This document shows positions 2,891 to 48,882 of a stretch of DNA of 64,000 nt, one piece after another (position 1 is the stretch's first letter; every line of letters begins with the position of its first letter). Under the pieces are notes generated by a model. That model did not search any database. It was given only the letters and a program-made list of their open reading frames with translations, and had not been told where the DNA came from. The stretch is from positions 18,720,339 through 18,784,338 of the forward strand of contig NC_054871.1 in the NCBI RefSeq assembly GCF_018320785.1. The letters run 5' to 3'. The stretch comes from Cheilinus undulatus. Its lineage: Eukaryota > Chordata > Actinopteri > Labriformes > Labridae. Position numbers and translations under genes: made by a program.

Positions 2891-7404
<4,514 letters not shown>

Positions 7405-11460: not shown

Positions 11461-11563
11461 TTACATTGAAAAGAATCAAACTGGATGTTTTCATATTGTG
11501 TATTTTAATAGGACAGACGATACAAATAGAATCTTAAGCAAGAGCTTGACACAAGATAAAACA

Positions 11564-11569
11564 TTTATT
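11564..11569 (-). terminator. Candidate ifi30 polyadenylation signal
   Basis: AATAAA on the minus strand, 157 bases past the ifi30 stop at 11726. This predicts a short 3'UTR ending near 11545. Confidence 0.5.
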
Positions 11570-11725
11570 TTACTTTGAAATGACAAAAGGTACATAAAAC
11601 ATTCAAGGTAGGTTTAATGTTCACTTTATCAGCTATCACTACTGAAAAATTCAACACACTGGTTAGATTTGATTGTGATGGAAGTTAGTATTTGTAGAGT
11701 GAATATTTTAAAGTTTTGTTTGTGT

Positions 11726-14700
11726 TCAGCAGAAACCCCTATTCAGTCTGACTGAAGCTCCTGTGCACACTGGAGGCTTCACTCCCTGTGAACACAGACA
11801 CAGTTAGTCACTTCTATAAACTGTCCAATACAGAGAAACGTGCTCACTTAATAAGACTCATTTTTTCAACAGATTATTTCCCCATGCCCCTGGTAAAATG
11901 CAAGGACATCCAAAGCATGACTAGGGTTGTGCCAATCCTCCTTACCACCAGATAGTGCCTTCAGGCAGCTTTCTAGACACATCTATGACATACTTCAGCC
12001 TCAATTTTTGGACCAAACATGCCTAAAATGTATGAACCGCACATGTTGAATTCATTTTGAGAATTTTGAACCTTTTAGACCTTTAACTCTGGTTCAGTGC
12101 CAGTACACCCGTTTCCCCCACCAGACCCCTACCCCTATGTTTTGCACATTCATGTCTAGGGGTAGGGTTCCCAAATTCTTGTTAGAATGGAAGGGCTGGA
12201 GCTACATGGCCCTTCAAACAAGCATGATGGCTGCACAAGCATCCAAAAAAGGTGTATAAAAGCAAAGAAGTTTATTCATGAGTAAGATCTGAAAATTACA
12301 ACTATTTATTATAATGTAATGTTTTAATGCATTTAGGTCCTTTTGATTTCAAACAAGCACTTAAAACTCAAGTGTACTGAAAATGTCCAGTAAAATCCCA
12401 CCTGTATGCATGAATACTGTTGACTATGACCAATAACATATCAGGAACTTTAAATAGCATCCCATTTCTTAGGAGACAGTTTCACCACTACTACTTTCAA
12501 CTGTTTTAAAAGACAAGGAGGCACTTTAAAACAAGGAGTTGGGGTAAATGTTAGAAACTGGGAGTGAGCCTATAACCTCTTTCAGAGGATTTTTCACTTG
12601 CTTTTTCAGTTTGTCCACCATTTCAATTATCCAAACAGAGAGCTTTAGTGTTAAGAAAATTTAAAAAAAACAAACCTTGTAGAGCTGGCAGACCAGACGG
12701 AAAAGTGACGACATGGCCTTGTCTTCGTTCTCTTCAGTGTATTCCTGAAACACAAAATATTGATCTTTAAATCTGTTAAATCAGTCAACATCACTGTAAA
12801 CTATCACTAAAACTCAAGGACCTCTAGACTTTTCATCCCATCATTATCAGCTGCTATAAGAAGGAATAAGATCGTTTTTGATCTAATCAGCTTTGACCGG
12901 TTCCTTTACCTCACAACACCACTGTCATTCTGCTCTCTCAAGCTGCTCTTAACTTCTTTCTCTCCGACTTTCACATCAATTTGATTTGTTTTTTTCATTT
13001 GGTTCTAGATTAGTGTGTTCCTTTAAAAGTCCTAAAGACCGTCTTAAATCTAATTTCAGAGAAATATATCTGTGCTTCACTCTGATGGATTAACAGTTTT
13101 TATTAGTCATAATACAAAGTGTATTCATTTTCTCTGCAGCTTCGCCATTGTGGGGATGTAAACCAATTTCTTCAACTTAGAAAATTCTTGAAAGAAATGT
13201 TGTGTCAAAGTCCCTTTAATACTCTGTGTATTGTTCTAAAGAAAACAAATTATCACTACCACTGAGGGAATAGTTTTTATCAGTTAAGTACTTGACTTTA
13301 TTTATTTTACTTTATTTTTAAGTTTTTGTACTGATTGGCTGCAAAAAAGTCCAGTCAGTCATGACAGAGATGGTCAGGGGCAGAGCCAGACGGGTTAAAT
13401 ATCTGGGGCAAAGCACAAACAAAGACCTGTCCAGGAGGTGACTTCTTCCACTATTTCCTTTGCTTATTTGAGCAGTTGTATGCACTATTTTTACACAACT
13501 TTAAACCAAAATTTAGACTTCAAATGCCAATAAATATATGCATAATTTGGGCAAAAATTATGCAGTTCAATCTAGAAAAACAAAAAAATTCAGTTTTTAC
13601 TTTTTTTTAATGTAAATGTGCTAAAAGTACTGTTCTAAAATTATGATACACCTTACTGAAGCTCAACCATTTTCACTTCTGCTTCTGAAAAATATCTGTG
13701 GCTTATTTTTTAAGGAGGGTGAGGCAAGAATTTCAAAATTGGAACCATTTGTTTTTCAAATAAGAGCATAAACAGCAAGATATGGAGTAACATATATTGA
13801 TTTAATCTGAAAAATACTGAAAATTGTATTTTTGGAACCATTTGAAAAGTACTTTTAATACTTCAGTGAGTGCCTAAGTTTTTAATTATAAAAAGATCTG
13901 TTTTTTTTTTTCTAAATTTAAGAATTAAATCCCCTTTTTGTGATCAGCAAGGCCCAATTGTTGATCACTTATTTCTTATTGCATTTATTTTTCAAAACAC
14001 TTATAAGCAATATAGTTTTAACCAATCTGAATGCAGGACTTTTAAGAAAACACTCAGGGCTTAGGCACCATAAGAAACTCCTCCACTCCACCTGTGTAAA
14101 TGGTGTTTTTTCACCACTTTGATATCCTTGGTCATTAAAATATATCATTTAAAGCAAGTAGTTTCAAATATAATTGAAAATTCTAACAGCCTTAGCTGTA
14201 ACACTTAAAAAATGGGGCTTCAAATGCTGATCCCCAGCGTTTTACCCCATTGAAAGTGACCCAGGGGACGTGCGTGTGCGCAGGATTCAGAGCTCTGGTC
14301 ATGGCAGCGTTGGCGTGCATCAGCTGGTTTCCCAGACTTCCTTTAACACACGAGTCGATGCTGGACCAGGAGACGGAGGGAGCGTACAGCTGAACACACT
14401 GAGACAACACACCAAAATATCGGTAAATATACACAGGTAGTGAATATTGACCTATAGTCCACAACTATATTGTTATCATATATAACTATATCAACTATAT
14501 AGTTACAGCTAATGTCTCTTTAGACAAATACTTTGCAAAACAATTAAATAAGGCATGGTCAGATTTTCAAAACAAGACAACACATATGAACAAATATTCA
14601 CTTAAAATCAGAACATTAGTTTCCGAACATTAAATAACATTTGTTTCTTTCCCTGCCTTCAGGATAAATTATATAAAAGTCAAATGATCAACAATAATAT

Positions 14701-16917
14701 TTAAATAGACTATAATTGAGTGCAACACAATTTGTTGGGCTTCCTTTTGCAGTTTTTAAGACTTTATGAACTTAAAGCATCAAAGTCAAATAAGAACCAC
14801 ATTTTTCTCAGTAATATTTGTGTTACCTCTTTGGATTTTTTAACCTATCATTGGTCTTAATTTTTAGTGCACCGAACACAAATGATTATGAATTAGAGGA
14901 TTCATGGCCAAAACTATGTAAATATTATATGTATGTTGATACTCACAGGCTGCGCAGCACTAATTACATCTACAGATGACTCCATGCAGTAGATGATCTG
15001 AAATGCTGAGTGTCCAGTTAAATGGATGATGCAGGCCTGACGAACACATCAATAACTCAATCATGGTTTTGTTAATTTTAAGATGTGACACAGCTACAGT
15101 ACAGTTGGTGAATCATGCAAACCTCTATCATGTTTCCTTTACACTCAGGCTCTCCGTGCTGACAACTGAAGGGCGAGTTTGCAGACGGAAGCTCCTGCAG
15201 CAGAAACAGAGATACTCAGATTTCCTACATTAGTGCTATATAATTGTATTCATTTGGAGGACAAGGATAGGGGCACCTTTGCATTCCCGTAGGGCACCAG
15301 GGTGACAGTCATGATGTCCTGCAGCATGGTCCAGGTGGGGAAGAGCTGCTGTGTGATGAAGACTCTGCAGGCCGGACACAGACTCTCATAGTATAGAGTG
15401 ACGGATACTGGAGGAACAGACTGGTTTGGTCTGGTTGCGTTCACCTCCATACACTGCTTCTGAACCTGCAGCACACAGACAAAAACAACACAGGAGCAGC
15501 TTTTTTCCCTTACCCTTAAATGTGTTGAAATATCGTAGGATAAAGGTAGAGACCATTTTAAGTGTTTTAAAGTTTGCATGTTTCTAAATTTGATAATAAT
15601 GGCTGTAATTTGAAGAAAGAGGTTCAAAAAGTAAACTTAAACCCTTTCGAGATTTCTGCTTTTATCTGACAAGACTGCTGAAGAGAGAAGGATGTGGGGA
15701 AAGACATGCACAAATGGCACCAGGATCAGGATTCAACCCTATAACCAGTGAGTCATGGACTGCAGCTTCTGTTGAAAATGGAACGTTTGTTAGTTAGTTT
15801 GTTGTTAGTTTGTTGCAACATAACTCAAAAAGTTGCGGACAGATTTTGATGAAATTTTTAGGAAATGTCAGAAATGGCATAAGGAAGAACTGATTAGATT
15901 TTGGGAGTGATCCAGATCACCGTCTGGATCCAGGAATTTTTAAAAGGATTCTTCACTATTGGGAGATAGGGCTAATGGCGGAGGTCTGTGCTTTTCTAGT
16001 ATTACTGTTATTTTACTTTCTAAACTGCAGTGCAAAACATTACCTGCACCTCACAAGAACCGCGTTCAAATATAAAACCTGTTAAAGTAGATACATGTGG
16101 TGCAGCTCTAGATTGTTGACAAAAAAATTAAGTATTAATTCAACTCTTAAGTTGCAGCATTTAATCAACGGGGCACATGATATAGGTCTGTAGGCCAAAA
16201 TCCAAAGTAAAACATACAGCACTCTTTACTTCTCCAGCCATTAGATTTAATTAAGTATCACATGAAGAGCCACTGGTGCTCAATTTCAGAGGCATGACTC
16301 TCATTTAAACTCACATCTAAAAAACCTGAACCTCACTTGACCTTCATGTTGTCTGGTCTGGGACTGAGATACTCAGTGATAAAACTTTATTTATTCATCG
16401 TATGTTTCTATAACAATGTTAAGCCTTTCTAGAGAACTCATCGGTTATATTACAAACAGTTTTAATGTTTTGAATAATAAACGTGTCTACTATGGTGGGT
16501 GAAAAATAAAAGGAAAAAAAGTGAGATTAATCTCTTATCAGCCAGCTTTTAATTTGGCTTAGAGAAAATGAGACTACAAACGCCTCGTTATTTAACCACC
16601 TATGAATAATTATGCCAAAATAGTAGCAGCTTGTGGAGGCAGCTTTGTTAGTGTTGAATATAATCAGTTAGAGACATTTCAAGTATTTTCTGCTCTGGAT
16701 CCTCAAAGAAAATGATTAACGACAAAATATATCCCCCTGTCCATGTAAATAGAAGCATAAATGTGAGTCCACTTACCTTGCAGGCTATTGCTATCTCCAG
16801 GGACCGACACCACTGGGAAGGAGGGTAACGACAGGACGGTTTAGGATGAGACATCCCGGAGCTACTCCGGTCAGCGCAGAGGAGTAAAAACACAGCAAAA
16901 AACCCTGAGAGTCTCAT
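11726..16917 (-). CDS. ifi30: Gamma-interferon-inducible lysosomal thiol reductase (GILT), complete, seven exons
   Basis: Reduces protein disulfides in the acidic endolysosome and so prepares antigens for MHC loading. Exons on the minus strand: 16917-16777, 15465-15277, 15194-15123, 15036-14947, 14398-14246, 12744-12676, 11785-11726 (TGA). All introns are phase 0 and the protein is 257 aa (human about 250). The start at 16917 opens a signal peptide ([20 protein letters not shown]). The active-site CxxC is CPAC (Cys77/Cys80) in [12 protein letters not shown]. The family signature CQHGxxEC is CQHGEPEC near residue 121. NQLMHANAA and HVPWVTFNG are the usual C-terminal motifs. The second intron is only 82 bp and has a weak donor (GTGCCC). 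Intron 1 holds a SINE relic and another repeat. All key cysteines are present, so it looks functional. Confidence 0.94.
11877..12030. repeat. Repeat shared with 59213-59352
   Basis: TTTCCCCATGCCCCTGGTAA, GCAAGGACATCC and CAGCCTCAATTTTTGGACCA correspond to the other copy. It lies in the last ifi30 intron. Confidence 0.6.
15640..15770 (-). repeat. tRNA-derived SINE, decayed, in ifi30 intron 1
   Basis: The motif GATGTGGGGAAAGACATGCA followed by CAGGATCAGGATTCAACC is the reverse form of the same SINE family seen at 33354-33548 and 50811-50985. It is divergent. Confidence 0.45.
15785..16000. repeat. Dispersed fish repeat in ifi30 intron 1
   Basis: The stretch running from ACATAACTCAAAAAGTTGCG through GAACTGATTAGATTTTGGGA, GTGATCCAGATCACCGTCTG and GATCCAGGAATTTTTAAAAG is one I recognise as a common interspersed repeat of teleost genomes. 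No second copy is evident in this window, so the call rests on memory. Confidence 0.35.
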
Positions 16918-23131: not shown

Positions 23132-26100
23132 TATAGCTTTCCAAGCTAGTTTATGTGCTCCTTTTTAAATCAAAAGTTGGAGAAGGTAACACTTGACTCT
23201 TTTTCCCCTTTCATCACAATTGTGTGAAATCCCACAATGAAACAACAGCAGTTGTATTTTGGTGATTGCCTATTAGAAGGAAGGTAATGAAGAACTATTT
23301 GATATGATCATCACACACATTTCATGGTATGAGACACCAGCTACTCTCCTAAAAAGCCATTGTGGCCAAAAAAACGATTGTGCACGTACCATTATAGGTA
23401 TGATTAACCTAACAGGAATTTATATGCTTCTCATTGGTCAGCTAAATATTAAGATTAAAAAAACATTTAAAAACCAATTTTAGTGTTTCTTTTCAGTGCA
23501 AGGACAAAACAACCTCAGCAGTAACTTCTCCATATTTAGCACCACCACATGCCCACCTGCTTCACTAACAGGTTAGATGTACATGGAGACAGTCATATAG
23601 TATCTCCACCTCACATGAGACACTTATGTGCAAATGCTATGCTTTAAACCTAAGTACCACTGAGCAGTGGCGTAGTCTGTGCACAAGTTATACACCTTGT
23701 TTACATTTCTGCTACAAAATTAACTGGGTAGTATGTATATAAAATAGCTTTTGTAATTAACTGTTAAATTAAATAATATTTCAGAGTTACTCACTCAGTT
23801 ATACACTCAGTAAAACTTAGCAGTGCACAAAAAAGTAAAAAATAACTGAAAAGGGACAAAAGTCCACAATTTGGTTTCAGATGCCAGATCTACATGCCTT
23901 TCATGATTTATGTGGTTAAGGTGCATCCATTCATGTTCACTGAATGACAAGTCACTGGCACCTGATAACATCAGCAATTCAGTTATCTTCTAAGATGAAT
24001 GTCACTAACAAACAACTATGGCTATGAATTATGTATCCCCTAACCTGACGGTATTCAGTCTTTTTCCATGTAAACTAAACTACTGAGATATTGACCTAAT
24101 CTCACCACACAAAGTGCAGAACTTCTTGTCAGCAAGCATATTTTAGACATCCTGTGCAATGCAGCCTGTCAGACCTCTGTACTGTGCAACATAATTTCAC
24201 TGTCATGTGGTCACAAATGCACAATGCCACACCTAGCATTTTTCATTGACAAAGAAGACATCAAAATCTAACTCATTTTGTATTACTGACAGTTGACCGG
24301 GATGAGGTGCTTCGGGCAAAACCACAGCAATGAGTTTATAGCACCACTAATGGAGTAAAAGTAAAGCAAGAGAAGAATTTTGACAGATTACGACTAAACT
24401 ATCAAAACCATGAGAAAAACACATATTTCATTGCTGGTGTTGAAATAATAGTACCATAACAGTACCTAGCTGACATATTCATTTGATTTTTAAGCTCTAC
24501 ATTTAATACCTATGTCATCTGTGCATAACAATGGCATGCATATTGAACATTTAACAGGTATCAGGTGTAACTACCTTTACGGGCAAGATATCGTCTGTTT
24601 AAGCTGTTAACTCCATGTACACATGTGACGATCATAAAAACACATGCTTGACTAATATCTGCCATTACAGAAGTATATTTTAGGTGACTCATTTAAAAGG
24701 ATAAAAACAAAAGAGAATTGACATTGTATTGACAGAACCAATGACTATCTATGATATGAACTTCTCTTATATGCCTAACAATAACACGTTAAAATAGAAG
24801 TGTTTTATTTAAAATAATTAATTTAATCTTATAAAAATAGTTTGAATGATTCACTTTAACCTGCAAGAATCACTTCAAATCCACTCACAAAGTGCACTAG
24901 TAAAAGGTGGCTCTGCTTACTTATCCAAGAGTAGAAGTACACGGATAAGCCTTAAAACTAAACCTTTCTTTATTCCATAGTGTGATTTTTATTAATTACA
25001 GATAAAGATTCCCATAGGAATAATCTCAGGCTACAGCATTTAGCAATATATTACTCTATACACCAATTGGTCCAGTGTAACTGGAAACTGATGAGCAAGT
25101 AGCTTTTTCAGGTAGCTGAAAAATGCTTACAAAATGTAAATATTGTAATTTTGCTGTTTGGCAAATAAGAAAAGGCTATCCATGGGGTAAGAGTAGTTTT
25201 CTGAAAATACTATTGATGTTAACATTAATTAGTACCCTTTTCACTAGTTTTCTGTGTTTATTTCAGTAACACTAAAATAATTAAGAGCCTTTGTTTGATA
25301 CTCTACTAAATTATTCATTAAATTTTACCTTAGGTATAAGGCCATTAAATGCACAGCCGCTCATGTCAGACACGATTCCATTTCTATTGTGGCATCCTAA
25401 CGGGAATAAGGTCCATATTGCACCCACTTCTACAGTGTAAAAGAAGTCAGTAATAGAGGGTAGGTAGCTTCTCTGTTGAAACCCTGATTTGGGGGCACTC
25501 CAGGGTTCTTGTGGTACTTGTGTCACCTTGTATCCAGTTTGACACCCAGTTCTTTAGCACATCATTATCTCATCATATTCAGGGCTACTTGCCTGTCAGT
25601 GATATAAATTAAATTATGATGGCTTAAAAAGGAACACTTAAGGACACTTTTTTCAGCCAAAACCCCAAATCTTGTGGACCTATGAACTTTCACGCTTATC
25701 TCCTTTACTATTTTTCTCCATATCAGGCTCCAGATCTCTGTCCCATCTAAGATAAATCTGAGCCTGGTTGATACATTAAAAAGATTTCAGTAATTGTGCT
25801 TTTAGGGGTTGGTATTCGAATAGTCGCATGTAGTCGACACCCAGAAAGGCTTTTAGTATTTGCCAGTGCTTCATTTCAGAAGCTCCACAGTAATGTCTTC
25901 ACATATTTTATAACTTAAAGTGTTAAAATTAAGCAATACATATATTACAAAAACTGTGACATGATTGTCCTTTTTTACCAACAAAAATAATTTGCTAAAA
26001 ATAATAATTTGAAAGCTGGTATAATTCGAAAAGATTTAGAGGTAGAATCCAATAAATCCTATCTCGTCTCATCTGTCATGTCCTGAAGATATTGCAGAAG

Positions 26101-27416
26101 TGTGCACATTAAAGGCTGGAGGGCTTTCCCGCTGAAAACCGATAGCCAAAACAATAAGTTTACTCTTAAGTTTGCACATACCAGTAAGAAAATACATTTT
26201 CTATCAAATTTCTTTCTTGCCAATGGCATCGATATGTAAAATTGGTCTAACAAGCATTCTCTCTCTCCTCTTTGTGTTTGTATATATTCTGGTCATTTTC
26301 TTTTAAAGTGCTTGTGTGTCTCTATAGCTTGGACACAAGCCATAGTTGACATGTCCTAGGTAGTGCAGAGTCCCATCCTGAGTTCAGTTTCCTAAAAGCA
26401 CCTTATGAGCCACAACTGCACCAAAGGATTATACTATATGTATAATCTAAAATTAAAGTATTCACTTTTTTTCATAGCTGAAGAATGAGAGTATGTTAGA
26501 GCACAGTGTCTCTTCCAATTCACAGCATGATACAGACCTTTAATTGGCAACATTTGGAAAAAACGTTTAAGAAATGTTTGGGGCAAGATTCCCCACATAC
26601 ATGGACCATGAATTTGTTGCTATATGAAGCCCAATCTCAAATATGAATTAAGGTTTGAACTGTTAAATCTTGAGCTTGTTTCTTCCGAGAAACAGTTGAG
26701 ACAAAACACTGACTTTGTGGATAAATGGAAAAGTTCCATCAGTCTCTGTACACTAGGTAATTAATTTACTTGTTATTCCCCAACAAAGGTGCTTTATAGC
26801 TCTTAGGGCTGACTGTTGTCCTGAAAAGGTTTGATATCTGTTAAGTAAAAGCTAGATGGCCATGGTTTGTGTTACCCTTGTATTTTAAACCACTAACACG
26901 TAGGATTTTTTTGTTACCTATATAGCAGCACAGTAATGGGGCACTTACTGACACTAGCTTTAGTGTGCCTATATTCTATTACTATTTCTGAACTTCTTGT
27001 AAAATTTTCAGTGCTGAGTTCTGTAAACATAAAGAACTTCATCCAAATAAAGGAGGATTTACTGTAGTACTGAGAAGGCGGTCTGGGTTTTGAGTGTGCC
27101 CATCCAACTTTGCTGAGAATGTTATGCCATGTATTAAATGAACAAAACTGACAATGAATTAACCTAAAAACTACTCTGAAAATTAACAGAATGTTTTTTT
27201 TGGTAATGTTTTTGTGGATGCTGTTGCATCTCACCAGTTCAGGATTTGTAGAAACCAAAGTCTGATTACTGAAGTTGTTTCTTAAGATTCTTGTAAGGTG
27301 ACAACACTAACCGGTACTCTGTAAGAACCAGGTAACAGTGTCCATATTGGTGCGTCCTCAGTGCTTATACGGTGAAGCTTTGGGTAAGCGCCATTAGAGT
27401 GGCGTGCTGGTGTGTC
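23132..27416. other. Intergenic stretch, including the presumed pik3r2 3'UTR
   Basis: No coding exon seen on either strand. The part nearest 27416 should be the 3'UTR of pik3r2. Minus-strand AATAAA signals at 25257-25262 and 24969-24974 are candidate ends but nothing decides between them. The rest is AT-rich with no recognised feature. Confidence 0.4.
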
Positions 27417-30400
27417 TCAGCTGGGCTGCTGGCTGAGAGCGGGCCAGGCCAGTGTTACATTCAGCTGCTGGTTGTGCTGGATCAGGGATGTGTGTCGGTA
27501 GTGGAGGACCAGCTCTCTCAGCGAAGAGTAGAGGTTGTAGGGCTCAGCAAAGCCATACCCAGTTGACGTCCTGTAGATCACACAGTGCTTCACATCCCCA
27601 TCAACACTGCATTAGAAGAAAGCTTGTCATGTTATCTGCATAGTTATCATTTTCAACAAAAGATAGAGCAATCAGGATATAGTTTTTCTAAAATGAATAA
27701 GCATACTAGTATCAGAAAGGGGAGATGATGTCAGATAGTTATTTAAAAACATAAAGTATCTGATGGTACTCACACAACAGAGCAGGCAAAAGAGCCTCTC
27801 TGAGTCTGGCTGTCTCTGATAAGGAAGGTCCCGTCTCTCTTCCCCCGGAGCAGTTCTTCTGCTTCTTTTCGTCTCATACCACCAACATACCAGCTCCTCT
27901 CCTCCTGGTGGCTTTCATCTGCCAGGGTGTATGGACTAGAGATATTTTGGTGAGGGTCTGGGTTAGTCAGGTTTTTGGCTTATTTTGAAATGATAAAACC
28001 TATGACTGTTGGTGCATGGAAGGCATCCTTCACATATTTGTCACATATTTGATTTTTTACATTTATCACATACAAAACATTTCTTGACCACATATATGGG
28101 CCATGTTTTAAGGTTTAGCAATTGGCAAAAGCAAGCAGTGTAAGTAATGAATAGCAGAAGATCTTTTACATTTTTCTCTGTTAACTAAAAAATACTACAA
28201 TTTTCAGTTTACTTTGATGAATTAGAAAACTCACTCTTCCTCTTCATTCTTGAGACCAAGCCACTCATTGATCTGGCTCTGTTTAGTTCCTTGCTGTGTG
28301 AGCCATCTGAAACATGGACACAACATATTTAGAAAAAAAAGGAAGAAGACATGGAACATGTAAAACATAACCCAAAATGGTAGCTACCAGTGCTTCTGTT
28401 TCATTGTGTTGCAACAAAAAATTGGCTGAACAGAAAGGGCTTTTCTAAAAAGATAACAGCAAGCCCTCTGAATTTTGAAATATAAGACATTGGCTGTGAA
28501 AGGGAAAAGGCTAGAGTGTGGATTTAATATTTTTATGTTTTAAATGGATCCTCACAAGTTAACTGAGGAGAAAAAAAAGAACATCAGTCAGCTAAAACAC
28601 AGTTTTCCATCATGATCAGGCTCATGATAAAGCCTCCCATGAAGCATAGTAAGATTCACAGGTTTGCTACCTGGATAGAGTAGCTGATTTTTGTTTGTTT
28701 GTTTTTTGTGGTGTAACAAAACATCTGTATCATTTGTATGTTGTGAAGCATTGCATGATGGAGTATTATGTACTTATTTTACATTTGTTTATTATTCGAT
28801 TTTTAAATGGGTTTTCACTTGTAGCTTTTTGGACTGACAAAGATTAGCATGTGCTGTCGCAATCAAATCACAGAAAATCAAAGTACACAAAACCTTATTC
28901 CATCATGAAATTTAGACCACAAAAGATCCTGAGGGTTGGACTTACAGAAGGTATTGATCTCTGATCTTCCTGAGCTGCACAAGGTCTGGCTTCAGTCTGT
29001 TCATCTTTTTGTCTACCTCCATGTGAGCCAGCGCCTTCATCCTCAGCTCCTCCTCTAACCTCTTCTTGCTGCTGTGGATCTCCTCCACCCTGGACTGCAG
29101 ATCATCTGAATTGTTATGAATTCTTGTTGTAGGGAGAAGGAAAACGGAGAGAACTTCAGCAAACGTTCATTCTACTTGTTTGTTGTGACCATATTCAGTG
29201 ACTAAACAGAGGGGGTTGGTATTTAGAAGCATACTTGTCAGTCTCTGTACTGCCGTCTAATGTAAGATACATATCAACGTATTCTTTGCTGTAGCGCTCC
29301 TGAGTCTCACACTCCTCCTCAAAGATCCGAATGATTTCACTGAAAGCCTCTATGGCTGTCCGCTTGCTTTGCAGTTCCTGTGAAAGGAGGACAGAAAGCA
29401 TCCTAACTATTTCATTCAGGGCCTAACAGATAAGGCTTTGTTGTGGTGATTGTAAGAATGAACACATTTGCCTAAAACATTGCATTTAGAACCAATAAAA
29501 CACTGATTGTTGTGGTAAAAAAGTTTTTACAATACAGATTTTTTTGTACCTGGGATGTTTGGTTAAACTTCTCAAACAGATGGTCATATTCTTTGCTCTT
29601 CTCTTTGTATTGATCCTGAAGTATTCTCAGTTGTTCTCCAACTGCATCAATGTCAATTTCCATCACAACCTGCTGCATTAAAAATGAGAGTTCAGTGAAT
29701 ATTTATAACTGTTTACCTTTTTAAAATCCAATAAGGCATTAAGTTTTGTCCAAGTTGTATGTGCCATGTTATCTCTAATATTTATACACTACATATTTTA
29801 AAGAATATTCGATTACATTCTCAACAAAAACAGTGAACTTAGATTAAATAAGATCTCTCTTTCTGTACTTTATAGCGAAATTATATAGCTTGAGGCCTCA
29901 TCTACCTACCTGCTGGTATCTGGATAAGGGGTAGAGAAGCCTTGTGTCCAGTTTAGAGTTGTACTGGGCCAGAGACTTGTTCTGGTAATACTGAATCAGG
30001 TCTACCACAGACGGAAAGGCCAGTGGCTCAGAGAAACCATACTTTCCCCCCAGATGGAAGATCTTTATCAGTCTGTTTGTTCCATCTTTTCTGTAAAAGT
30101 CAAAGCATAACTGTTGAGCAAAGCTGCCTAAACTGCATTAAAAGCACACAGAAAGAGATTTCCACCCCTAAGGTCTTATACTATTTAAAGATTCTTCTTG
30201 TCAAAGGCATGTCTTTGTTAGAGAGATGCACATTTTTGCAACTGATGTCAGATACTGGACTAGTAAAGACTGGCATAGATTGATCAGGTATTTTGAGAAT
30301 GAGGTAGAACTTTGGATGATATATATTTATTTTCATGTGTGTGTTTATTTTTTGTGTCTACGTGCTGTTCCATGCATCATCGAGTGCACTGAGAGGCTTT

Positions 30401-33400
30401 TTGCTCTGACGAACAAGAAGGGGGCTCTGCTGGCTTCAGGGAGAGAGCTTCAGAGTCATCTGTTTGAAGGTATTTCACACCTACTATGCCAAAAAGTTCT
30501 GCGGCTACTTGTAATTTCTGCAGGCCAGTGAATCTAGGCATGGTGGTAGCACAGCAAAATACAACACAAAAAAAAATCGTTAAGGATCCAAGGCTAATTT
30601 TTGAACACTGGTAGGATGACATTTTTGTATTTGCTGATACCCAAGGCCTAATGGGGATTGGAAAGGTTTGAATGACAATTGTCTACTTTGTTACTAATGG
30701 TAATTTTTGCATGCCTTGTGTGTGATTCAGACATGTAATTAGCTTTGGAGAGTTCTTGCACAAGTGTTGCTATACAAGATAAATTTATTCTAAATTCATA
30801 CTAGAGCAGTCTGTCAGTTTTACTTAAAGGAATCAGTACTTGATTAATTTTGCATATATATTATAAAATGTTTTTCTTATTAGAATTCACCAGTATTGGG
30901 AAGCGTTTTTTCATCTCACATCTACTGCTCTTCCCATACTGATACATGGTTGCCAACATTAAAACTGTTTCATCTCTCACTCCAGTTAATACATACGCTC
31001 AGTAGGCAGTCTATTGACCTGCATCTGCAGATTGGAAATTTCAGACTTTAAGGTTAAAGAAAGCTTGGGGTCACAGATATGCTTATTTAATAGGAGCCAG
31101 GTCCGAGACGGTTTGTGTAGACAGCACTAATTACAATTACAAAAAATAAGAGCTTTAGACATTATGATATGGATTACTGGGAAAACAGCAGAGGCTCATA
31201 CTGTACAGACAAGATTATTTATTTCTGACGACTGAGGTCAGAAGCGGAACATCTTGAATACAATTTAAGTAACCCTTAGTCTAACCTCGGTCCACATGCT
31301 TTCATTTTTGGCAGATAATGCTTAAAATCAATTTTATGTTATTAGATCAAAAACCAAAACACTTCATGACCTCTACAGAACTTTAGACTATGCTGCCCCT
31401 AACATTTTATACTGGCCAAAATGAAGTAAAGTAAACTATCTACCAGGTAAACTAAACAGTAATTATCCAAAATCCTGATGGAAAAAAATGAGATATGCAT
31501 CAGCTACAGTTACAGCTCTTACGGCTCAAATGCAGTTTACCTTAGTGTGAGAGTGTATTCCCCTTTCACCTTGCTAGAAGCATCTCGAACCAGGAATGTC
31601 CCATCAGGAGTGTTTCTCATCATCTCATTTACTTCCTCCCTGTACAACCACAGTACACTAAATTTCAGCACACTATGTGCAAGCTTTAGGTAAATAACTA
31701 CCCACCAATACTTGTATTATAACTGTAGGAGTACAACAAATTATACAAAGTTTGTATGAAAATATTCCATACCTTGAGATATTCCCCCAGTACCAATCTG
31801 CCTCTGAAAGATGATTGTCATCAGAGTTGCACCCACATGCTGCCATGGCTTTGGTTATTTTGTTCTTAGATTGAAGGTCTGAACACAAAGGAAACACAAC
31901 ATCTGAATACAAATACAGAGTTTTATCAGGATTAGGATACAGAATGCAGATAGTCTCTTTTTTTTGTCTCTAAAACAAGGTATAAAACACATTTCCTTTT
32001 AAAATGAGCCATTAAAGGCTCCTCGTCCTGTTACTTCCTTTTTTATTATTTAACTATCTTCAAACTGAATAACTACAAGTTATGTTTAGGCCTAGAGAGG
32101 AATTTTAGAAAATGTCTAAACCAGAAATTGTAAGAAATAAAGAGAAAAAAAATTGAATTATTGTGAATTTTAAATTGTTTTGGGGAAGAGGTGATCATAT
32201 GCTGAGAAATTTAAAACGCCTATGACAAGCAAAGAAGAGATATTCTGGCAAGTACCTCCTTCCTTGGCGAAGTTAGTTCTTGGGACAGGAAACACATCAT
32301 CATGATCAACTGGAGAGGAAAGATCCTGCAGGAATGCTGTCAGGGAACAAGACTGAGCCCCGCTGTCGTTTTGACCCATCTTCGTCTCCAACAACTCTGC
32401 AATATCAACCGTACAGCAAGTGTTACTTCTGATGTTAGAAGAAGCCAGCCTGTGTGTGGCTATCTGCACTTTGTGGCTGCTCATGCACTGCTGGACCTAT
32501 GACAAGGACTCCAGAGGGTGATATGGTTGTGTTGCTTCGTCTTGCACCATGTGGGAGATTCTGTCCAGACTAGTCTGCTGACAGGTGACACTGTCTGACT
32601 GCCTAAAATACCAGAACGGACACTCCTCAATGATCAGGCACACTCACCCAGACTCTGCCCTGCTCAGTGCTCGACCTCGCCTTGCCTTGCCTCTTCTCGC
32701 CATGCCTCATCTTGCCAAACAAACAACAGCTGTCTGCAGTGAGATACCATGTTGGCCCAAAGGACTGGAGCTGATGTGCCACTGTTTGTTTGTGTTTATT
32801 GGCTCTGTATGTGTTAATAATGGGAAGCAGGGAAGGTGGGATCCTGTTCGTTAGGCATTTCGTAAAAGCATTACATCTGTGTGGGTTGTTACTGTTTACC
32901 AGTCAGTGGCTATCCACACATTTACCATTATACAGTATGGTGTGTGTGTGTGTATGTGTGTGTTGGGGGGGTGCTGTTAGCAGTTGATGTAAATCATCCC
33001 TTCAGCACTTGTGATGGTATGCCTGCAGATGCATTAAATCACTGCTGCAGAAGGAGCTGTATGCTGAAGGAATCATACACATGTTGTTGTAAAATGAGAG
33101 AGAGAGTAAACTCATTAACCCATGTTGCACTAACACCACGTTGCTTTTTCAGAAGTTTCCTGCTAAAAAAACACTACCAAAAGTCACAGCTTTTCTTGGA
33201 GTTTGGGGGGGGATTCTAGAACAAAGTGAACAGAAAATCAATCTGCAACCGTTTAAATAATAAGTTAAGAAGTTAGCGAAGCAAATACTTAAAACCTACC
33301 TTGCTTCAAGTTTCTCAAGAGAAAACCAAAACTCTAAACAATTAAGCAAATATGGGCTCCAGCTTAGCTCACTTGGTAGAGCAGATGGCTATGTGCTGAG

Positions 33401-36400
33401 GCTGTGGTTCCTGAACACACTGGTGGCAGGATCAACTCCCAGTCTTGGCGCATGTTTATTGTATGTCTTCCCCCACTCTCTCCCCACATTTCCTCTTTCT
33501 TCAGCTGTCCTATCTAATAAGGGAAAAATGCTCAAAAATAATCTTAAAGGAAAAATAAACATTTGGGAAAACAAAATGAATAATGCTGGTTTGTAAACTG
33601 TTGGTAACAAGTGTTGAAGTCGGTGTCGCAGACTTTAGCAAAGTAAATACGGGGAACTTTTGAAATTTCTTGTGTTTTAAACACTACAATTAATCGGTAA
33701 AGGGATGCAATGATTGGTCTGTCAATTGATCAGAAGATAAATGATGCTAATTCTTTTGTGAAACTCATAAGAGCTATTTATTTACGTCAGATATTTGCTT
33801 GCTTCTGCCTCTTAAGATTATGTTCATTGTCTGCCTTTTTATGTCATTCCTGATTCTTGCAATAAAACAAGGACAGGCAAATGCTTTGAAGACACCACTC
33901 AATCTATCATATAAGCTGCACTTTTAATACCTATATTTTTTTTGTCTGAAAAGTTGGCTGTGGCGTATATACTGGGATGACTTGTATACAAGAAACATGC
34001 AGTGTCATTACCGCAGGTGTGTTCAGCTGCCCCTGTCACACACTGCATGACATCTAATGCGACTGAATTTTTTTGTGTATAACAATCAGCAGCTCCACTG
34101 CTCAGACTGTACTGGAATACTGGCAATGACTAGATAGTGGAATTTGGCAACACTTTTTAACTGCTTTTCTTCCCTGTAAGGTCATAATCATGCATTAAAA
34201 AACTGATAGAGTAGTGCAGTGTTTCTGTGCCATTATATTAGGAGGGCGCCCCACCCCCCAAAGTCACCCCCCACCCCCTTGAAGGTTGAGTTAATTTTCA
34301 TTTAATTGTATTTTCTACATAGCGCCAGATCACAACAGAAGTCATTTAAGGATACCTTTCCTATAGAGCAGGGTTATACGTAGTCCCTTTAAATAAACAA
34401 ACTAAATAGCCCTATGTTATTCATCTAGAATGCATGTAATTTCTGAGTACTGGTTTTCTGCTTGTTCCGTTTGACTTTATAACCAGAACTGAGTAGGCTC
34501 ACTGAGCAAAGAGCCCCACCTCCTCCTCCCCGTGTCAGAGCTGCGGCCACGTGTTGCTTGGATGCTTTGACTCAGTATCATGAGGGAGAGTTTTGTAATG
34601 CAACTGACTTATCCTCTAAAGTTGTATACGAACCGATGCCCCCTGCAAACTGACAAACCGGTGGGAAACGTGGTTAAAATCAGCGACAGTTGAGCTCATG
34701 TCCGCACCAACTCCCTCTTGATCTTCTCACCACAGCAGGCAGAAATACGTACAGCCCCTCACAGGTGTGTGGGGACAGGTGTAAGGGAATCAGCTCGGCT
34801 TCTATACAGACTGAGCAGCCAATCCGCAGGTCACCTGATGATCATTTTATCATTTTCAAATTCATTCATCCAAGATCAGTGAACTGGCGGACGACCCTTT
34901 TGTCTTTTGTCTATTTGTGATCATTATTTACACTCTTAAATAAACCTCGTCCACATGCAGATTATGACAGAAACTCTTCAAACTTTATAAATGTAGGAGT
35001 ATTGACAAAGATCACATAGGCATAGAGACAACAGGAGGAGGCAGAAACATGCGATGTGTGTGGATAATAATAGTGAAGAGAGAGAAAATGAGTAGATAAA
35101 GTCAGTGGAGGAGAGACAGATTTTGTTATAAAAACATTTACCAAAATACATAATCTTACCTATTATAAATACACTATAATGCCAAAAGTATTCACTTACC
35201 CATACAAATAATTAAAATCAGGTGTTCCAATCACTTCCATGGCCACAGGTGTATAAAATCAAGCACCTAGGCATGCAGACTGTTTCTACAATCATTTGTG
35301 AAAGAATGGGTCGCTCTCAGGAGCTCAGTGAATTCCAGCGTGGTATTGTGATAGGATACCACCTGTGCAACAAGTCCAGTCGTGAAATTTCCTCGCTCCT
35401 AAATATTCCACAGTCAGCTGTTACTGGTATTATAACAAAGTGAAAGCGTTTAGGAACAACAGCAACTCAACCAGAAAGTGGTAGGTCACGTAAAATGATG
35501 GCGTGGTGTCAGCAGATGCTGAGTCGCATAGTTCGCAGAGGTTGCCAACTTTCTGCAGTCAATCACTACAGACCTCCAAACTTCATGTGGCCTTCAGAGC
35601 TCAAGAACAGTGTGTAGAGAGCTTCGTGGAATGGGTTTCCATGGCTGAGCAGCTGCATCCAAGCCATACATCACCAAGTGCAATGCAAAGCGTCAGATGC
35701 AGTGGTGTAAAGCACACCACCACTGGACTCTAGAGCAATGGAGACACGTTCTCTGGAGTGACAAAGTTTGGTGTTGATGAACTTGACTGGCCTGCACAGA
35801 GTCCTGACCTCAACCCAATAGAACACCTTTGGGATGAATTAGAGCAGAGACTGAGAGCCAGGCCTTTTATTCTAACATCAGTGTGTGACCTCACAAATGC
35901 ACTTCTGGAGAAATGGTCAAAAATTCCCATAAACACACTTTTAAACCTTGTGGAAAGCCTTCCCAGAAGAGTTGAAGCTGTTACAGCTGCAGAGTGGATG
36001 AACGTCATATTAAACCCTATTGTTTAAGAATGGGATATCAATTAAGTTCATATGCAAGTCAAGGCAGGTGAGCAAATACTTTTGGCAATATAGTGTATGT
36101 TATATGTTACAATAAACTGTTTCTTAAATAATTATTTGGTTATTAATTTGTTAAATCTTTAAGATGTCAGACTCATTTTCATGTGGGGAGGCCTTTTAGA
36201 CTGGTATGATATAGTCCTAAAGTTACTCCTGAAGTGGCAGGAAGGCAAAAAAGTTAATTTCCAACCCTGTCATTCATACATAAATAATTATAGATAGATA
36301 GATAGGTAGACATGGACACCATGATTCCTTTAAGTGTTTGTGTCTATGTCGGTCTTGACAATCTCAAGTGAGGGACGAGACACATTACAGTCAGCACTGC

Positions 36401-39400
36401 ACTCTCCACTGTGCAATCATCTATCACAGAGAGTGTGGCAGAGGCATATCTAGTCTTGTTTTTGCAAGTGTTACAGCTAATATTATTTGGGTCTTTCATT
36501 GTTTTACCAATATATTAACAGGCATCTTCACCTCTCTACTGGAGTCTTAACCTGTCAGGACAACAGAATAATGAGCAAAACTTTATGATATTGGAGTCTG
36601 TTTTTATGGAGGGAGGCAATGATGACTGCAAGGTGTGGACCTCTGTTATTATTTAAAAATGTTTAAGACAGTATAATCATTGATTTCCATCCATTTATTT
36701 CTTTATTATTATTCAGTGTGCAGCAGACAGGCGTGGGACACTAACATCATCGGCCCAGTTAATAAACAAAGTAAACAATTACTTTTTCATTGTATGAAAA
36801 CACATCACTAAAATGGATCCCGTTTTGAGCTGTTTAAATTAGCTCATTTTGTCATTCTTAATGGTCCAAACAAAGCTAATGTAACTCTGTCACACAAAAC
36901 TGAATATGAACAGCTACTTTTATACAGCTACAGCTGTAAGAATTCTGCATAGAATCAACATTTTACAATGTTACAAAGTATATACAACTGTGTAAAAATG
37001 CTTGATGAACACTAAAATAGATTAAAAAAAACAAGAGGCCACACAATAAAATTATAATTTTATTGTGGTAAATGCAGAGAGATTAAATGGTTCGGTTAAA
37101 TTATTTGGGGAAAGACCTTCAGACCCTCCCTTACCTGGAGATGCCAACTGTAATTTGCAAATATTTCAATATTTCACACATTGACCAAAAGGTTGTTGCA
37201 GAGGAAAAAGATAAACAATAGAGTTTGCTTTTAAACTCAGTATTTGTCAATTTTAAAGAATAATATTAAAAATAAGCTATTTTATTTTGGTTAGTACCTT
37301 TAGCAAAATGCATTAAAAATCTAAATGAAAAAGAGACATGTCAAGATTGAGATTGGGATCCAGCCGTAAAAATAATGTATGAAAAACATGGGACTGAAGA
37401 GCATAGTATTGGTAAAAAAGACAAAGCTCTTTGGTGAGAGCATGGAGTTTATTAAAGGCCTTTTAACCTTTTTGTAATGACAGATACCTTTGTTTTTTGA
37501 TATTCTTTCATAAAAAATTGTGATATGATTTTTTTATCCATATAAAGCAGTCTTACAGAAAACACTCCTCAGTTAAAGACTACAAATGACAGGCATGGAA
37601 AGACAGAGCAACTCATGACTGTGAGTGTGTCTCACAACTATTACCAGAGGCTGAGAGCTCAGCTACCATACTGTTAATTGAAGATATACTAGTCTCATAC
37701 AGCAAAAACAGATGGTACTGAAAGAGCGACACAACTGCTCAGAAACTACTCATTGTGGACTTTGCTGAATGAAATTGAGATCATCACGCAGGAGGAAGGT
37801 TTATACCTTTTTCTCCCAGGAAGATTCCAAAAACAGACTGTGGCTTGTAACCCACAACACCTTATATTCAAGATTTTAGGTTCATTGAAACTCAGGGATT
37901 TTTTAAAATCCCTTTATTTTAAATGCTGATTTAAATTTTTTTCATCCCAACATAAATTATGCCTAGCAGATTTATCAATACTGAAAAGCATTTTCTTTTT
38001 GCAGCAGCCCTTGGTTGATTTATCTTAAAAATAAACAGCAAACTTATCAGTGAGTAAAAACTTTTAGCAGTTACAGCTTCAAGATGTGCTGCTTTTTTCT
38101 TAATTGATATAAACACTCAGCAATTTATTTATACAATACACCTGTTGAAGTGCTCATGAACACAGACATCTAATCAGCCAATCATTAGGCAGCAACCAAT
38201 GTATTTAGTCATGTAGACATGATCAAGATGATCTGCTAAAGTTCAAACTGAGGATCAGAGTGGGTTATAAAGGTGCTTCAGATGGCTGTAAATGTGCCAT
38301 GGTTGATTTGCACAGATGGCCTGATCAAAGTATTTCATAAACTGCAGATTTACTGAATTTTTCATGTACAACCATCTCTAGGGTTTATAGAGAATGGTGA
38401 GAAAAAGAGGAAATATCTAGTGAGCAGCAGTTATCTGAGTGAAAATGCCTTGTTGATTAATGACCAGAATGGTTCAAAATGCTAGAAAGGCAACAATTAC
38501 TCAAATAATCATTCATCACAGCCAAAGTATGCTGAAGAGCATATCTGAATGAACAACAGATCAAGCCTTGAAGCAGATGGGCTACAGCAACAGAGGACCA
38601 CACCGGAAGCTGATCCTTTTAGCCAAGAACAGGAAATTGAAGATGCATATCACACAGGCTCAAAAAAATTAATAATAGAGGACTGGGAAAACGTTACTTC
38701 TCAGATGACTCGATTTGTGCTGCAATATCGGAATGGTAGGGTCAGAATTTGGTGAAAACATCATGAAATCCATCCATACCATCAGCAACCAAGGCAAGAT
38801 TAAAGTCCCTTAAATCACCTTTCTTCCCCATTCTAATGCTCAGTCTGAACTTCAGCAGATTGTCTTGACCATGTGTGCATGCCTAAACGTATTGGCTACT
38901 GCTATGTCACTGGCCAATTAGATATTTGCATTCATCAGCTGATGTACAGAGGTACATAAAAAAGTGAATGAGGAGTATATGTTGTGATTACATTTCAAAT
39001 GTGATATAATGACTGTTTATTTCTAATAATGTGAAAGCCATGTCATTACTGTAAATCAGATTTATAAGGGAAGGGACTGTCTGATTTTTCAAACCGATGT
39101 CAAATTCAGCACTATATGGCTGGGGTCAGCGTTAATTTCATCGACTAAAACCATGACTAAAAATATTCGTCAGCAGCCTTTTTTCCATAAAAAAAACTAG
39201 ACTAAGACTAAAAAAGATAGAAATGACTAAAATGTGACTAAAACTAAAATGCATTTCATTTTAAGACTAAAACTAAGACTAAAACTAAAAATAGCTGCCA
39301 AAATTAACACTGGCTGGGATATTGTACCAAAATAGTTTCTATATAATTTCTACCAAATTTCACAATGACTATTATCAAAATTATAGCCGTACTGATGCTT

Positions 39401-39694
39401 GAGAGTATCTAAAATCTTACCTTGTGCTGCTGATGTAGGCTCAGGCCTAGTATCAATTGATGCATCCTTCCCTAGTTGTGATTGGTTGAGTGGTGGTGAC
39501 ATCGTAACAGGGAATACAGAGTGGGGCTCAGGATTATCAACCATATGGTTGGTGCCCTTGTGGCTGACCACATCATCATCCCTGAGATGGAGGGATGCTA
39601 GTGATGATGTTGGGAAATCAGCTGGCTGCAGCTCGGTGTCCTCAGCACGGTCTTCGCTGTCATAAGCTCTGAGCTGGAAACCCTCCTTCGCCAT
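27417..39694 (-). CDS. pik3r2: PI3-kinase regulatory subunit beta (p85-beta), with degenerate SH3 and no RhoGAP domain found
   Basis: Adaptor that binds phosphotyrosine motifs and holds/inhibits the p110 catalytic subunit. Minus-strand exons: 39694-39421, 32396-32256, 31878-31773, 31639-31541, 30090-29910, 29672-29550, 29377-29235, 29122-28946, 28306-28235, 27935-27774, 27606-27417 (TGA). Every junction is GT-AG and phases join, giving 555 aa (human about 728). nSH2: [23 protein letters not shown] (Arg192). iSH2 coiled coil about 268-445: [29 protein letters not shown]. cSH2: [14 protein letters not shown] (Arg479), [14 protein letters not shown]. Identity to p85-beta is shown by [13 protein letters not shown] and [14 protein letters not shown]. 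The start has AAAATGG context and an in-frame upstream stop. The first 91 residues align with only the beginning of the SH3; no RhoGAP exons were found in the 7-kb intron 1. An alternative start inside exon 2 (MGQNDSG) would give a p55-like form. Confidence 0.9.
30366..30475 (+). other. Coding-like GC-richer island in a pik3r2 intron, unidentified
   Basis: A short open stretch ([20 protein letters not shown]...) followed by GAAG|GTATTT stands out from the AT-rich intron. It reads open on both strands. No family recognised; a retroelement fragment is possible. Confidence 0.2.
32938..32966. repeat. TG microsatellite
   Basis: GTGTGTGTGTGTATGTGTGTGT followed by a run of G, in pik3r2 intron 1. 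Confidence 0.85.
33354..33548 (+). repeat. tRNA-derived SINE
   Basis: Starts GGGCTCCAGCTTAGCTCACT with an A box (TAGCTCACTTGGTAGAGC) and a B box-like GGATCAACTCCC, followed by the TGTCTTCCCCCACTCTCTCC body and an AAAAATAATCTT tail. This is the common teleost tRNA SINE layout. Inserted in pik3r2 intron 1. The pol III boxes are imperfect, so transcription is doubtful. Confidence 0.8.
34214..34340. repeat. Possible end of a hAT-type nonautonomous element
   Basis: CAGTGTTTCTGTGCCATTAT followed by AGGAGGGCGCCCCACCCCCC resembles the terminal sequence of a common fish hAT-like repeat beginning CAGTGTTTCCC. The opposite end was not found with confidence. Confidence 0.3.
35170..36097 (+). mobile_element. 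Degenerate Tc1-like transposon
   Basis: Inverted ends TACACTATAATGCCAAAAGT and ACTTTTGGCAATATAGTGTA. The + strand keeps a transposase start ([20 protein letters not shown], 35307) and a C-terminal part ([20 protein letters not shown]) near 35779-36025. Between them the reading frame is broken, and a deletion joins the ...WSD first-aspartate region directly to the second-aspartate region near 35757. Not functional. Lies in pik3r2 intron 1. Confidence 0.88.
38108..38981 (+). mobile_element. Degenerate Tc1-like transposon of a second family
   Basis: The sequence follows a well-known teleost Tc1 family: CATCTAATCAGCCAATCATT, ACAACCATCTCTAGGGTTTA, GGGCTACAGCAACAGAGGAC and GGTAGGGTCAGAATTTGG. The end TAAAAAAGTGAATGAGGAGT corresponds to the family's TAATAAAGTGGCCGGTGAGT terminus. 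The C-terminal half of the transposase is deleted and the remainder has stops. Confidence 0.78.
39120..39315. repeat. GACTAAAA-rich degenerate tandem-like repeat
   Basis: Many irregular units of GACTAAAACTAAGACTAAAA between a GGTCAGCGTTAATTTCATCG start and AAAATTAACACTGGCTGG. The outer parts (GTTAATTT / AAATTAAC) are an inverted pair, which suggests a nonautonomous DNA element rather than a simple satellite. It sits 105 bp past the pik3r2 exon 1 donor, inside intron 1. Confidence 0.5.
39421..39694 (-). CDS. pik3r2: pik3r2 first coding exon: SH3 remnant
   Basis: Encodes 91 residues plus one base. The opening [20 protein letters not shown] lines up with the SH3 start of human p85-beta (MAGPEGFQYRALYPF..., then EDLELLPGD). 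ELQPADF sits where ELLPGDV is expected. The ALYxY-type motif has lost residues. The later SH3 elements (the conserved Trp, the GDFPGTYVE strand) are absent, replaced by a Ser/Thr/Pro/Asp-rich stretch. Donor CACAAG|GTAAGA. Phase 1 matches the acceptor at 32396. Confidence 0.75.
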
Positions 39695-47807: not shown

Positions 47808-48722
47808 TCTAAAAATTCTGCAGACACAAACAAGCTATCTTGCATTGAAAATGGTTACAGCACCGTACTGAGTGAGCTGGGAGAGGATGTGCACTGGGAG
47901 GGACTTTGTCATATGCCACTACATGCAGCCAAAGCCATGCAGTTCCTCACTAAAGGTTACACAGAAACAACTCAAGGTGAGTACAGTAGTACAATTCTCT
48001 GGCAGTCTAAGGACCTGTGGTATGTTTTAAGTATAAAAAATAGCTAGATTAACAACTATTTTAAATCTTCTCACAGATATCCTGAATGCTGCAATAGTTG
48101 ATGAAAATCATAAAGAGATGATGATTGTCAAGGACATTGATTTGTTTTCTCTCTGTAAACATTATCTAGTGCCTTTCTTGGAAAGGTAATCTATTTAGTA
48201 AGCTGTTAAAAATCCTGAAAAAGTAATATCTCCTATGGCTGGTATCTACTCACATTTATATATTCTTTTTTATGTGACAGTGTTCTACATTACACAAAAA
48301 TTGTTTTTCTTATCATTTTTCATACAACTGATTTTTTTGTAAGTACAGTATACATTAGAATTTAAACTCAGTTTAAGATTATGACAAAAGTATCTTTGAT
48401 TGCCACAGGCACACATAGCATACCTCCAAAACAAGAAAGTGGCCGACCTCAGCAAGCCTGCATGGTAGGTTATGTTTCACACAAACACACGACTTTAGCT
48501 GTTTGTGTCATTCTCATCATGTATTTTGGAATTGTGGAAATCTACAGCAGGAGCCTTCCAGGTAGAACACTGCTCATACCATCACATTTTTGTTTTTTAT
48601 CAGTGATTGTAAGTTATCTTACATTTTTGTCCCATGTAACCCCTTAATGTCTCTACAGTTTAGGAGTATCATCTCTATGACATTGGAGCCTGCTGGAGTT
48701 GCAGTGGTAATAGAGGTTGCGT
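47808..48722 (+). pseudogene. GTP cyclohydrolase I relic, five exon remnants with introns
   Basis: The live enzyme makes dihydroneopterin triphosphate, the first step to tetrahydrobiopterin. Exon remnants follow the vertebrate GCH1 structure. About 47808-47976: GYSTVLSELGEDVHWEGL, HAAKAMQFLTKGYTET. 48077-48185: [20 protein letters not shown] then [14 protein letters not shown]. 48409-48464: AHIAYLQNKKVADLSKPAW. 48530-48561: IVEIYSRSLP. 48659-48720: LEPAGVAVVIEVA. Lesions: CEHH is CKHY, losing a zinc-ligand His; one base is missing at the end of exon 2; the exon 4 acceptor reads GG instead of AG; exon 5 has a stop (TAG for the Gln codon) and a deletion of about 24 bases. The last exon (HMCMVMRG...) is absent. 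Retained introns show a duplicated gene that died rather than a processed copy. Which paralogue (gch1 or gch2) is unsettled. Confidence 0.88.
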
Positions 48723-48882
48723 GAAAAAAATCAATATCTTATTTTTGGAATAATGTTTAGCTGAAATATTTGAATTTAAAAGTTCTTGGCAAGTCTGGAA
48801 AAAACAAATTTCATTTTTATTCCTTTTTATATTGGACTGCATAGGAGAGTGGGAAGTAACTGTGCACACTGTGCAAGAACTG

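Follow-up and report, generated by a model that had tools for sequence, protein, structure and literature searches.

The 64,000-nucleotide stretch of the Cheilinus undulatus genome analyzed here (contig NC_054871.1, herein C7, positions 18720339 to 18784338; hereafter, the window) carries a pik3r2 gene, which encodes a p85-beta type of regulatory subunit, on its minus strand. Our results suggest, with a probability that we put at about 0.8, that this gene is a retained pik3r2 duplicate encoding a natural p85-beta without SH3 and BH domains, that it stands beside a complete copy on another contig of the same genome (C13), and that the two most likely form a pair from the teleost genome duplication. 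A preliminary description of the window, made from its letters alone, had proposed that this lineage turned a p85 into a p55-like regulator, thereby losing SH3 and BH contacts. That interpretation is partly supported herein: it holds for the locus but not for the organism.

Gene structure and domain content

The gene extends from 39694 to 27417, and an exon-by-exon rebuild of the model joined eleven in-phase exons into a 555-residue product, with GT-AG borders at 10 of 10 introns, phases that fit throughout, and zero N bases in the window. The rebuilt model, its Pfam domains, and its placement in the R2 clade (below) all agree with the preliminary description of an eleven-exon, 555-residue p85-beta with an intact SH2-iSH2-SH2 core, for which the coordinates given (32256-39694) cover the start of E1 to the end of E2 only. 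The exons and the first two introns, in order of transcription, are as follows.

39421..39694, minus strand: E1, eroded SH3 exon; 91 codons plus 1 nt, ATG at 39694, donor AAG/gtaaga, exit phase 1
32397..39420, minus strand: intron 1, 7024 bp; the C13 counterpart position holds exons BH1 and BH1b
32256..32396, minus strand: E2, eroded middle BH/RhoGAP exon; 47 codons, phases 1-1
31879..32255, minus strand: intron 2, 377 bp; the C13 counterpart position holds exons BH3 and BH4
31773..31878, minus strand: E3, linker and nSH2 start; second proline-rich motif eroded, match to the C13 E3 exon at E=1.5e-4 over 13 aa
31541..31639, minus strand: E4, nSH2 with FLVRD; 84% aa identity to C13 over 32 codons, R358 equivalent kept
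29910..30090, minus strand: E5, nSH2 end
29550..29672, minus strand: E6, iSH2
29235..29377, minus strand: E7, iSH2, with a diverged end
28946..29122, minus strand: E8, iSH2; D560, N564, K567 and Q572 equivalents kept
28235..28306, minus strand: E9, iSH2-cSH2 hinge
27774..27935, minus strand: E10, cSH2 with FLIRD, the R649 equivalent; Y607 equivalent present
27417..27606, minus strand: E11, cSH2 end and TGA stop

Judged by domain order (nSH2-iSH2-cSH2), the locus is a predicted p85-family regulatory subunit of class IA phosphoinositide 3-kinase (PI3K). Specifically, Pfam recovered two SH2 stretches (2.7e-41) and PF16454, PI3K_P85_iSH2 (7e-60), at bit scores of 139.9 versus 140.1 (SH2) and 201.7 versus 204.7 (iSH2) in the window protein and the complete C13 copy, respectively, and residues 152-553 were collinear with p85-alpha (E=5e-166). 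Among 16 compared p85-alpha positions in the SH2-iSH2-SH2 core, for which we assume the functional roles, 14 were unchanged, with K379 replaced by R and R557 by M. Pfam detected neither SH3 nor RhoGAP in the window protein, whereas the C13 control gave both (SH3 weakly). Nor did either domain appear, at E up to 1, in the three minus-strand frames of 26001-64000, a scan that returned this gene's own SH2 and iSH2 segments, a KN motif and ankyrin repeats belonging to a KANK gene, and DUF6451, AglB_L1, TBCA_PH and Ank_KRIT1, all four below cut-offs; the plus-strand scan for hidden SH3 or RhoGAP domains covered intron 1 only, in three frames. In the translations, two proline-rich motifs are also gone from the window protein, the one after SH3 and the one ahead of nSH2 (VLPAKPVK in C13).

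Remnants of the SH3 and BH exons

When the C13 exons were searched against the whole window, E1 was the best match of the SH3 exon (E=5.4e-5) and E2 that of the BH2 exon (E=0.002), each with a score reached by 0 of 5000 shuffles. E1 has in common with the C13 SH3 exon the start context AAAATGGCG, the donor CAAG/GTAAGA and exit phase 1, is 45 nt shorter (274 versus 319 nt), and has lost the Trp and the GDFPGTYV stretch. Thus, the earlier account of a 91-codon first exon without Trp or GDFPGTYVE, joined to E2 in a phase 1-to-1 step, is borne out by the translation and the rebuilt model, and the exon is identified as an eroded SH3 exon. E2 has the in and out phases of C13 BH2 and retains MGQ.D...S......LxDLxSPV, a segment from the middle of the BH domain in which LxDLxSPV is, we presume, a RhoGAP-type motif. 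It had been taken for the end of the BH region; since it holds this mid-BH segment, that placement is corrected, and its scores against C13 BH1, BH3 and BH4 were at shuffle level (reached by 2551, 1265 and 1745 of 5000 shuffles, respectively).

For the other BH exons, intron matches of C13 BH1, BH3 and BH4 went no lower than E=0.73, 3.6 and 5.6, respectively. The best place for BH1 in intron 1 lay on the plus strand (E=0.73), with another, at E=1.4, overlapping E2 in a different frame; BH3 and BH4 had none in intron 2 among the matches listed, and BH1b, searched by tblastn only, had no intron match among its six best places. The BH1 and BH1b searches agree with the earlier view that no further BH exon is visible in the 7.0-kb intron 1. 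By these comparisons, four BH exons appear to be gone from the window copy, and one eroded BH exon and the eroded SH3 exon remain, so that the initial verdict of no RhoGAP/BH exons stands for the four and fails for E2. A tblastn search with p85 SH3 and BH domains, proposed at the outset, was weak with human queries and clear, for both E1 and E2, with C13 exons: with human p85-beta and p85-alpha N-terminal halves, E1 came fifth (E=0.18), after two chance-like places (E=0.009 at 11.7 kb on the plus strand, with a stop, and E=0.047 within the proline-rich part of KANK) and E3, and the top match within intron 1, among the best 80 listed, was a proline run on the plus strand (E=0.49). Intron 1 also contains, at 35309-35869 on the plus strand, a Tc1/Sleeping Beauty-like transposase remnant spread over three frames (HTH_SB, HTH_Tnp_Tc3_2 and DDE_3 pieces, of which HTH_SB and DDE_3 are under their cut-offs).

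The exon phases suggest how such a loss could have been tolerated. In C13, the junctions following SH3, BH1, BH1b and BH2 are in phase 1, that following BH3 in phase 2, that following BH4 in phase 1 and that following E3 in phase 2; in the window, those following the SH3 remnant, the BH2 remnant and E3 are in phases 1, 1 and 2, and all junctions of E1, E2 and E3 to E11 have the phases of their C13 counterparts. BH1 plus BH1b and BH3 plus BH4 are therefore frame-neutral blocks, and dropping both leaves the frame intact. We propose that the C7 copy would have shed its four BH exons as these two blocks, that erosion would have reached its SH3 exon, the middle BH exon and the two proline-rich motifs, and that the half that stabilizes, inhibits and recruits p110 would have been kept.

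A complete pik3r2 copy and the p85 family

The genome searched was one assembly of 1.17 Gb in 46 contigs. An iSH2 domain search listed 18 matches, 17 of which fall in six loci with p85-like exons, while the 18th (C22:4810936) was weak (E=8e-4) and had no p85-alpha core match among the matches listed. Sequence and tree together divide the six into two pik3r1 loci (C17 and C5), two pik3r3 loci (C7, near its start, and C13, at 34.97 Mb), and two pik3r2 loci (the window and C13, at 31.69 Mb). Places on C11, C2 and C18 were rejected for want of a p85-alpha match, and C16 gave only a weak SH2 match (E=0.001).

The C13 pik3r2 reads as complete. Its model has 15 coding exons and 736 aa with no internal stop, and is predicted to encode a whole p85-beta, with RhoGAP (1.7e-21), SH3_1 (5e-4; 20 bits against a cut-off of 22.9), and the SH2/iSH2 core. 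The model is itself a prediction, because a script selected exon BH1b for being an open stretch between AG and GT that carries an LYR-like motif, and because the first acceptor of BH4 gave stops and was moved to keep the frame, with a weak donor, gtttgt. With the C13 copy complete as modeled, the organism would not have lost its SH3 and BH domains; this open model, along with the two pik3r1 loci, tells against the proposed loss of SH3 and BH contacts by the lineage. What survives of the p55-like proposal is its application to the window locus, where SH3 is eroded, BH is mostly gone, and the p110-controlling half appears, by sequence, to be kept. As a separate observation, the pik3r3 copy at C13:34965001-34968400 is also fast (branch 0.43 versus 0.008 for its C7 sister), and its changed iSH2 stretch sits at the exon end that is also altered in the window gene.

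Phylogenetic placement and gene neighborhood

A tree of nine sequences (IQ-TREE, LG+G4), one of them a row that we take to be human p55-gamma, placed the window copy in the R2 clade with support of 96.2/98, the second value being the ultrafast bootstrap (UFBoot). In its alignment, insertions relative to p85-alpha were dropped, segments A and G were left out for all rows, I was blanked in two rows and B in one (where the wrong SH2 had matched), and segment I of C13 and the last part of segment E of the window were entered by hand from their own translations. An assignment of the window gene to PIK3R3 (p55-gamma) was rejected, as it falls in the R2 and not the R3 clade and tblastn found no p55-type first exon within it. 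Its branch (0.45) is four times longer than those of the C13 copy and human p85-beta (0.11 each).

Evidence that the two copies arose together comes from their neighborhoods, in which one further gene of the window is relevant.

14195..15636, minus strand: IFI30/GILT-like gene (open-frame span, extent approximate); GILT domain at E=1.1e-13, about 15.3-15.4 kb

IFI30-like matching frames also lie near the C13 pik3r2, at about 31.672-31.673 Mb, and IFI30 presumably neighbors PIK3R2 in the human gene order. Further, pik3r2 and pik3r3 occur together on both C7 and C13. Given an IFI30-like gene near both, the two pik3r2 copies are probably teleost ohnologs, with an inferred age for the duplication. 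This synteny of the copy pair involves one direct neighbor. For the genes around it and between it and pik3r2, the scans covered two minus-strand and three plus-strand frames in 1-13500 and a single minus-strand frame in 13400-27300. PMC4632047 reports teleost-duplication copies of pik3r2, names a pik3r2b and counts it, among genes that are otherwise retained as teleost duplicates, as lost in medaka, and describes pik3r2 as having been under positive selection at the base of the teleosts; the words SH3, domain and truncat are absent from its main text. We found no published account of pik3r2 SH3/BH domain loss in the literature searched, which excludes most subscription journals.

Elsewhere in the window, a KANK-family gene (KN motif and ankyrin repeats) lies upstream of pik3r2 at ~53.3-63.3 kb on the minus strand, and the genome has four more KN-motif loci, two of which are at C7:10.76 Mb and C13:35.49 Mb. 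Cyclic nucleotide phosphodiesterase exons, which we take to be those of a PDE4 gene, lie at ~6.3-6.5 kb on the plus strand (PDEase_I, four stretches, 9.5e-62), opposite to IFI30 and pik3r2. An open frame at 21976-22443 on the plus strand, which we assume to be reverse-transcriptase-like, has a related copy at about 31.708 Mb on C13, and a dispersed repeat of unknown kind is found at 18597-19317 and 48678-49460 of the window and at about 31.7163-31.7168 Mb on C13 (for example, with 81% aa identity over 63 residues of open frame). Rfam gave no match on the window.

Selection, coding status and alternative explanations

The core of the window gene is under purifying selection. Over 349 codons of seven exons (E4-E8, E10 and E11, with E3 and E9 outside the set), the proportions of synonymous and nonsynonymous differences from C13 were pS 0.76 and pN 0.19, a pairwise comparison that includes constraint on the C13 branch and in which synonymous sites are saturated. 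The N-terminal exons are more equivocal. Their amino acid identities to C13 (0.36 for E1 and 0.28 for E2) are the lowest among the exons measured; their differences at codon positions 1, 2 and 3 were 0.42, 0.43 and 0.67 (E1, 88 aligned codons) and 0.47, 0.51 and 0.67 (E2, 43 aligned codons), in an alignment made on amino acids, which favors low differences at positions 1 and 2. A frame as open arose by chance in 409 of 20000 shuffles for E1 and 2766 of 20000 for E2, and their GC contents (0.51 and 0.50) compare with 0.39 for intron 1. The E1 codon score was reached by 3 of 671 intron windows, but frames 1 and 3 of E1 score equally high, and codon usage by itself is therefore no proof of coding. 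On balance, the gene is probably retained, with an N-terminus that is relaxed but seemingly still translated.

Several observations weigh against the overall reading of a retained SH3/BH-less teleost duplicate. Inside the R2 clade, the partner of C13 is human p85-beta and not the window copy; this grouping is weak (34.7/56), and the tree therefore does not fix the duplication in teleosts, with long-branch effects on the placement also possible. The four-fold faster core could also mean early decay. At the level of E1, phmmer found nothing significant (-1.5 bits to the p85-alpha SH3), and a search of E1 alone against the PDB returned no SH3, its single match being a flagellar protein (E=1.2). 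Short, strongly eroded BH exons in the window could escape tblastn: in a sensitivity control, human p85-alpha found C13 BH1, BH2, BH3 and the nSH2-leading exon at E<=0.001 and missed BH1b and BH4, so such an exon could be overlooked. Finally, splicing of E1 to E2, like the C13 model, is a prediction from the sequence.

One alternative, which we consider unlikely but the most serious, is that the product starts inside E3, or at an unseen first exon in intron 1, yielding a p50-like protein and leaving E1 and E2 as little-used or unused remnants. Met150 of E3, in AAAGCCATGGCA, is a possible internal start, its context (GCCATGG) being near the usual one, 12 residues ahead of LSEADWYW; pik3r1 offers a precedent in p55-alpha and p50-alpha (PMC7458397), and the low identities of E1 and E2 fit disuse. 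Yet both exons keep open frames, exon-like GC, splice sites and phases, both differ least from C13 at codon positions 1 and 2 in the amino acid-guided alignment, and a first exon of the p55/p50 type was not found in the gene by tblastn, whose strongest p50 match (E=0.02) fell outside it, at 21.7 kb on the plus strand. This alternative overlaps with a retained SH3/BH-less duplicate, as the core would work alike under both.

That the locus is instead a decaying pseudogene seems improbable. The preliminary description had reasoned that a second intact pik3r2 might expose this one as a pseudogene, and such a copy does exist on C13; the longer window branch and the reported loss of pik3r2b in medaka (PMC4632047) point in the same direction. 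The pseudogene half of that argument did not follow: there are zero stops or frameshifts in 555 codons, the ten introns keep GT-AG, the SH2 and iSH2 Pfam scores nearly equal those of the full copy, and pS far exceeds pN in the core, with part of that constraint due to the C13 branch. Least credible of all is that the missing BH exons reflect an assembly gap or misjoin. Although the reading rests on one assembly, the window holds no N, and a gap is disfavored because it would not explain the erosion of E1 and E2 themselves.

Beyond the retention of an SH3/BH-less duplicate, we tentatively suggest, at somewhat less than even odds, that after the duplication one pik3r2 became a dedicated SH3/BH-less adaptor, a p55 design that would have arisen separately from p55-gamma and the pik3r1 short isoforms. 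Its SH3-BH remnant would then be translated as an N-terminal extension of ~150 residues, and the two copies would split p110-only from SH3/BH-dependent work.

Predicted function and relation to known p85 proteins

From its sequence, we infer that the window protein is expressed, binds p110, and has lost its N-terminal partners. It would act as p55-gamma does, or as would a p85-beta from which SH3 and RhoGAP had been deleted: p110 would be bound via iSH2, restrained via nSH2 and cSH2, and released on pYxxM binding, and the protein would form no SH3:proline-rich or BH:BH dimers and bind neither PTEN nor Rac/Cdc42. In the p85-alpha homodimer, such SH3:proline-rich and BH:BH contacts are described in PMC4518712, along with the binding and protection of PTEN. 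PMC5593529 reports, for chicken fibroblasts, that SH3 deletion in p85-alpha or p85-beta raises PI3K signaling and transformation, while joint deletion of SH3 and RhoGAP abolishes that activity. The SH3-RhoGAP-less p85-beta construct, as portrayed there, has nearly the same domain make-up as the window protein; the construct is an engineered human truncation, whereas the window gene is natural and encodes about 150 further residues.

Compared with p85-beta proteins (PIK3R2), including that of C13, the window gene is alike in its clade, in the exons and phases of SH3, BH2 and E3-E11, and in its SH2-iSH2-SH2 core, but differs in having no recognizable SH3, in missing BH1, BH1b, BH3 and BH4, four of the six exons that precede E3, and in lacking the proline-rich motifs. 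p55-gamma (PIK3R3), which is without SH3 and BH, is likewise a p85-family gene with SH2-iSH2-SH2 only; the window gene differs from it in falling in the R2 clade, in having no p55-type first exon that we could find, and in keeping eroded SH3 and BH exons in frame. The PIK3R1 isoforms p55-alpha and p50-alpha are short products with the same core, driven from their own promoters, whose parent gene still encodes p85-alpha, whereas the window locus shows no long form. Insect p60, also without SH3 and BH, is the sole adaptor of its genome, while the window copy is one of six p85-family loci. PMC8075199 describes p60 as a class IA PI3K adaptor that belongs to the p85 family.

Many p110-independent functions of p85 (N-terminal dimers, PTEN, small GTPases) reside in its N-terminal half, the separate value of which has been probed with engineered truncations. 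In this fish, p85-beta appears to exist as two genes, one encoding the whole protein and the other a version without SH3 and BH, and the phase layout of the SH3 and BH exons would let blocks fall out without harm to the kinase-regulating half. The case is a single gene from a single genome, in line with a known trend. Such a pair would allow both sets of functions to be separated in a living vertebrate.

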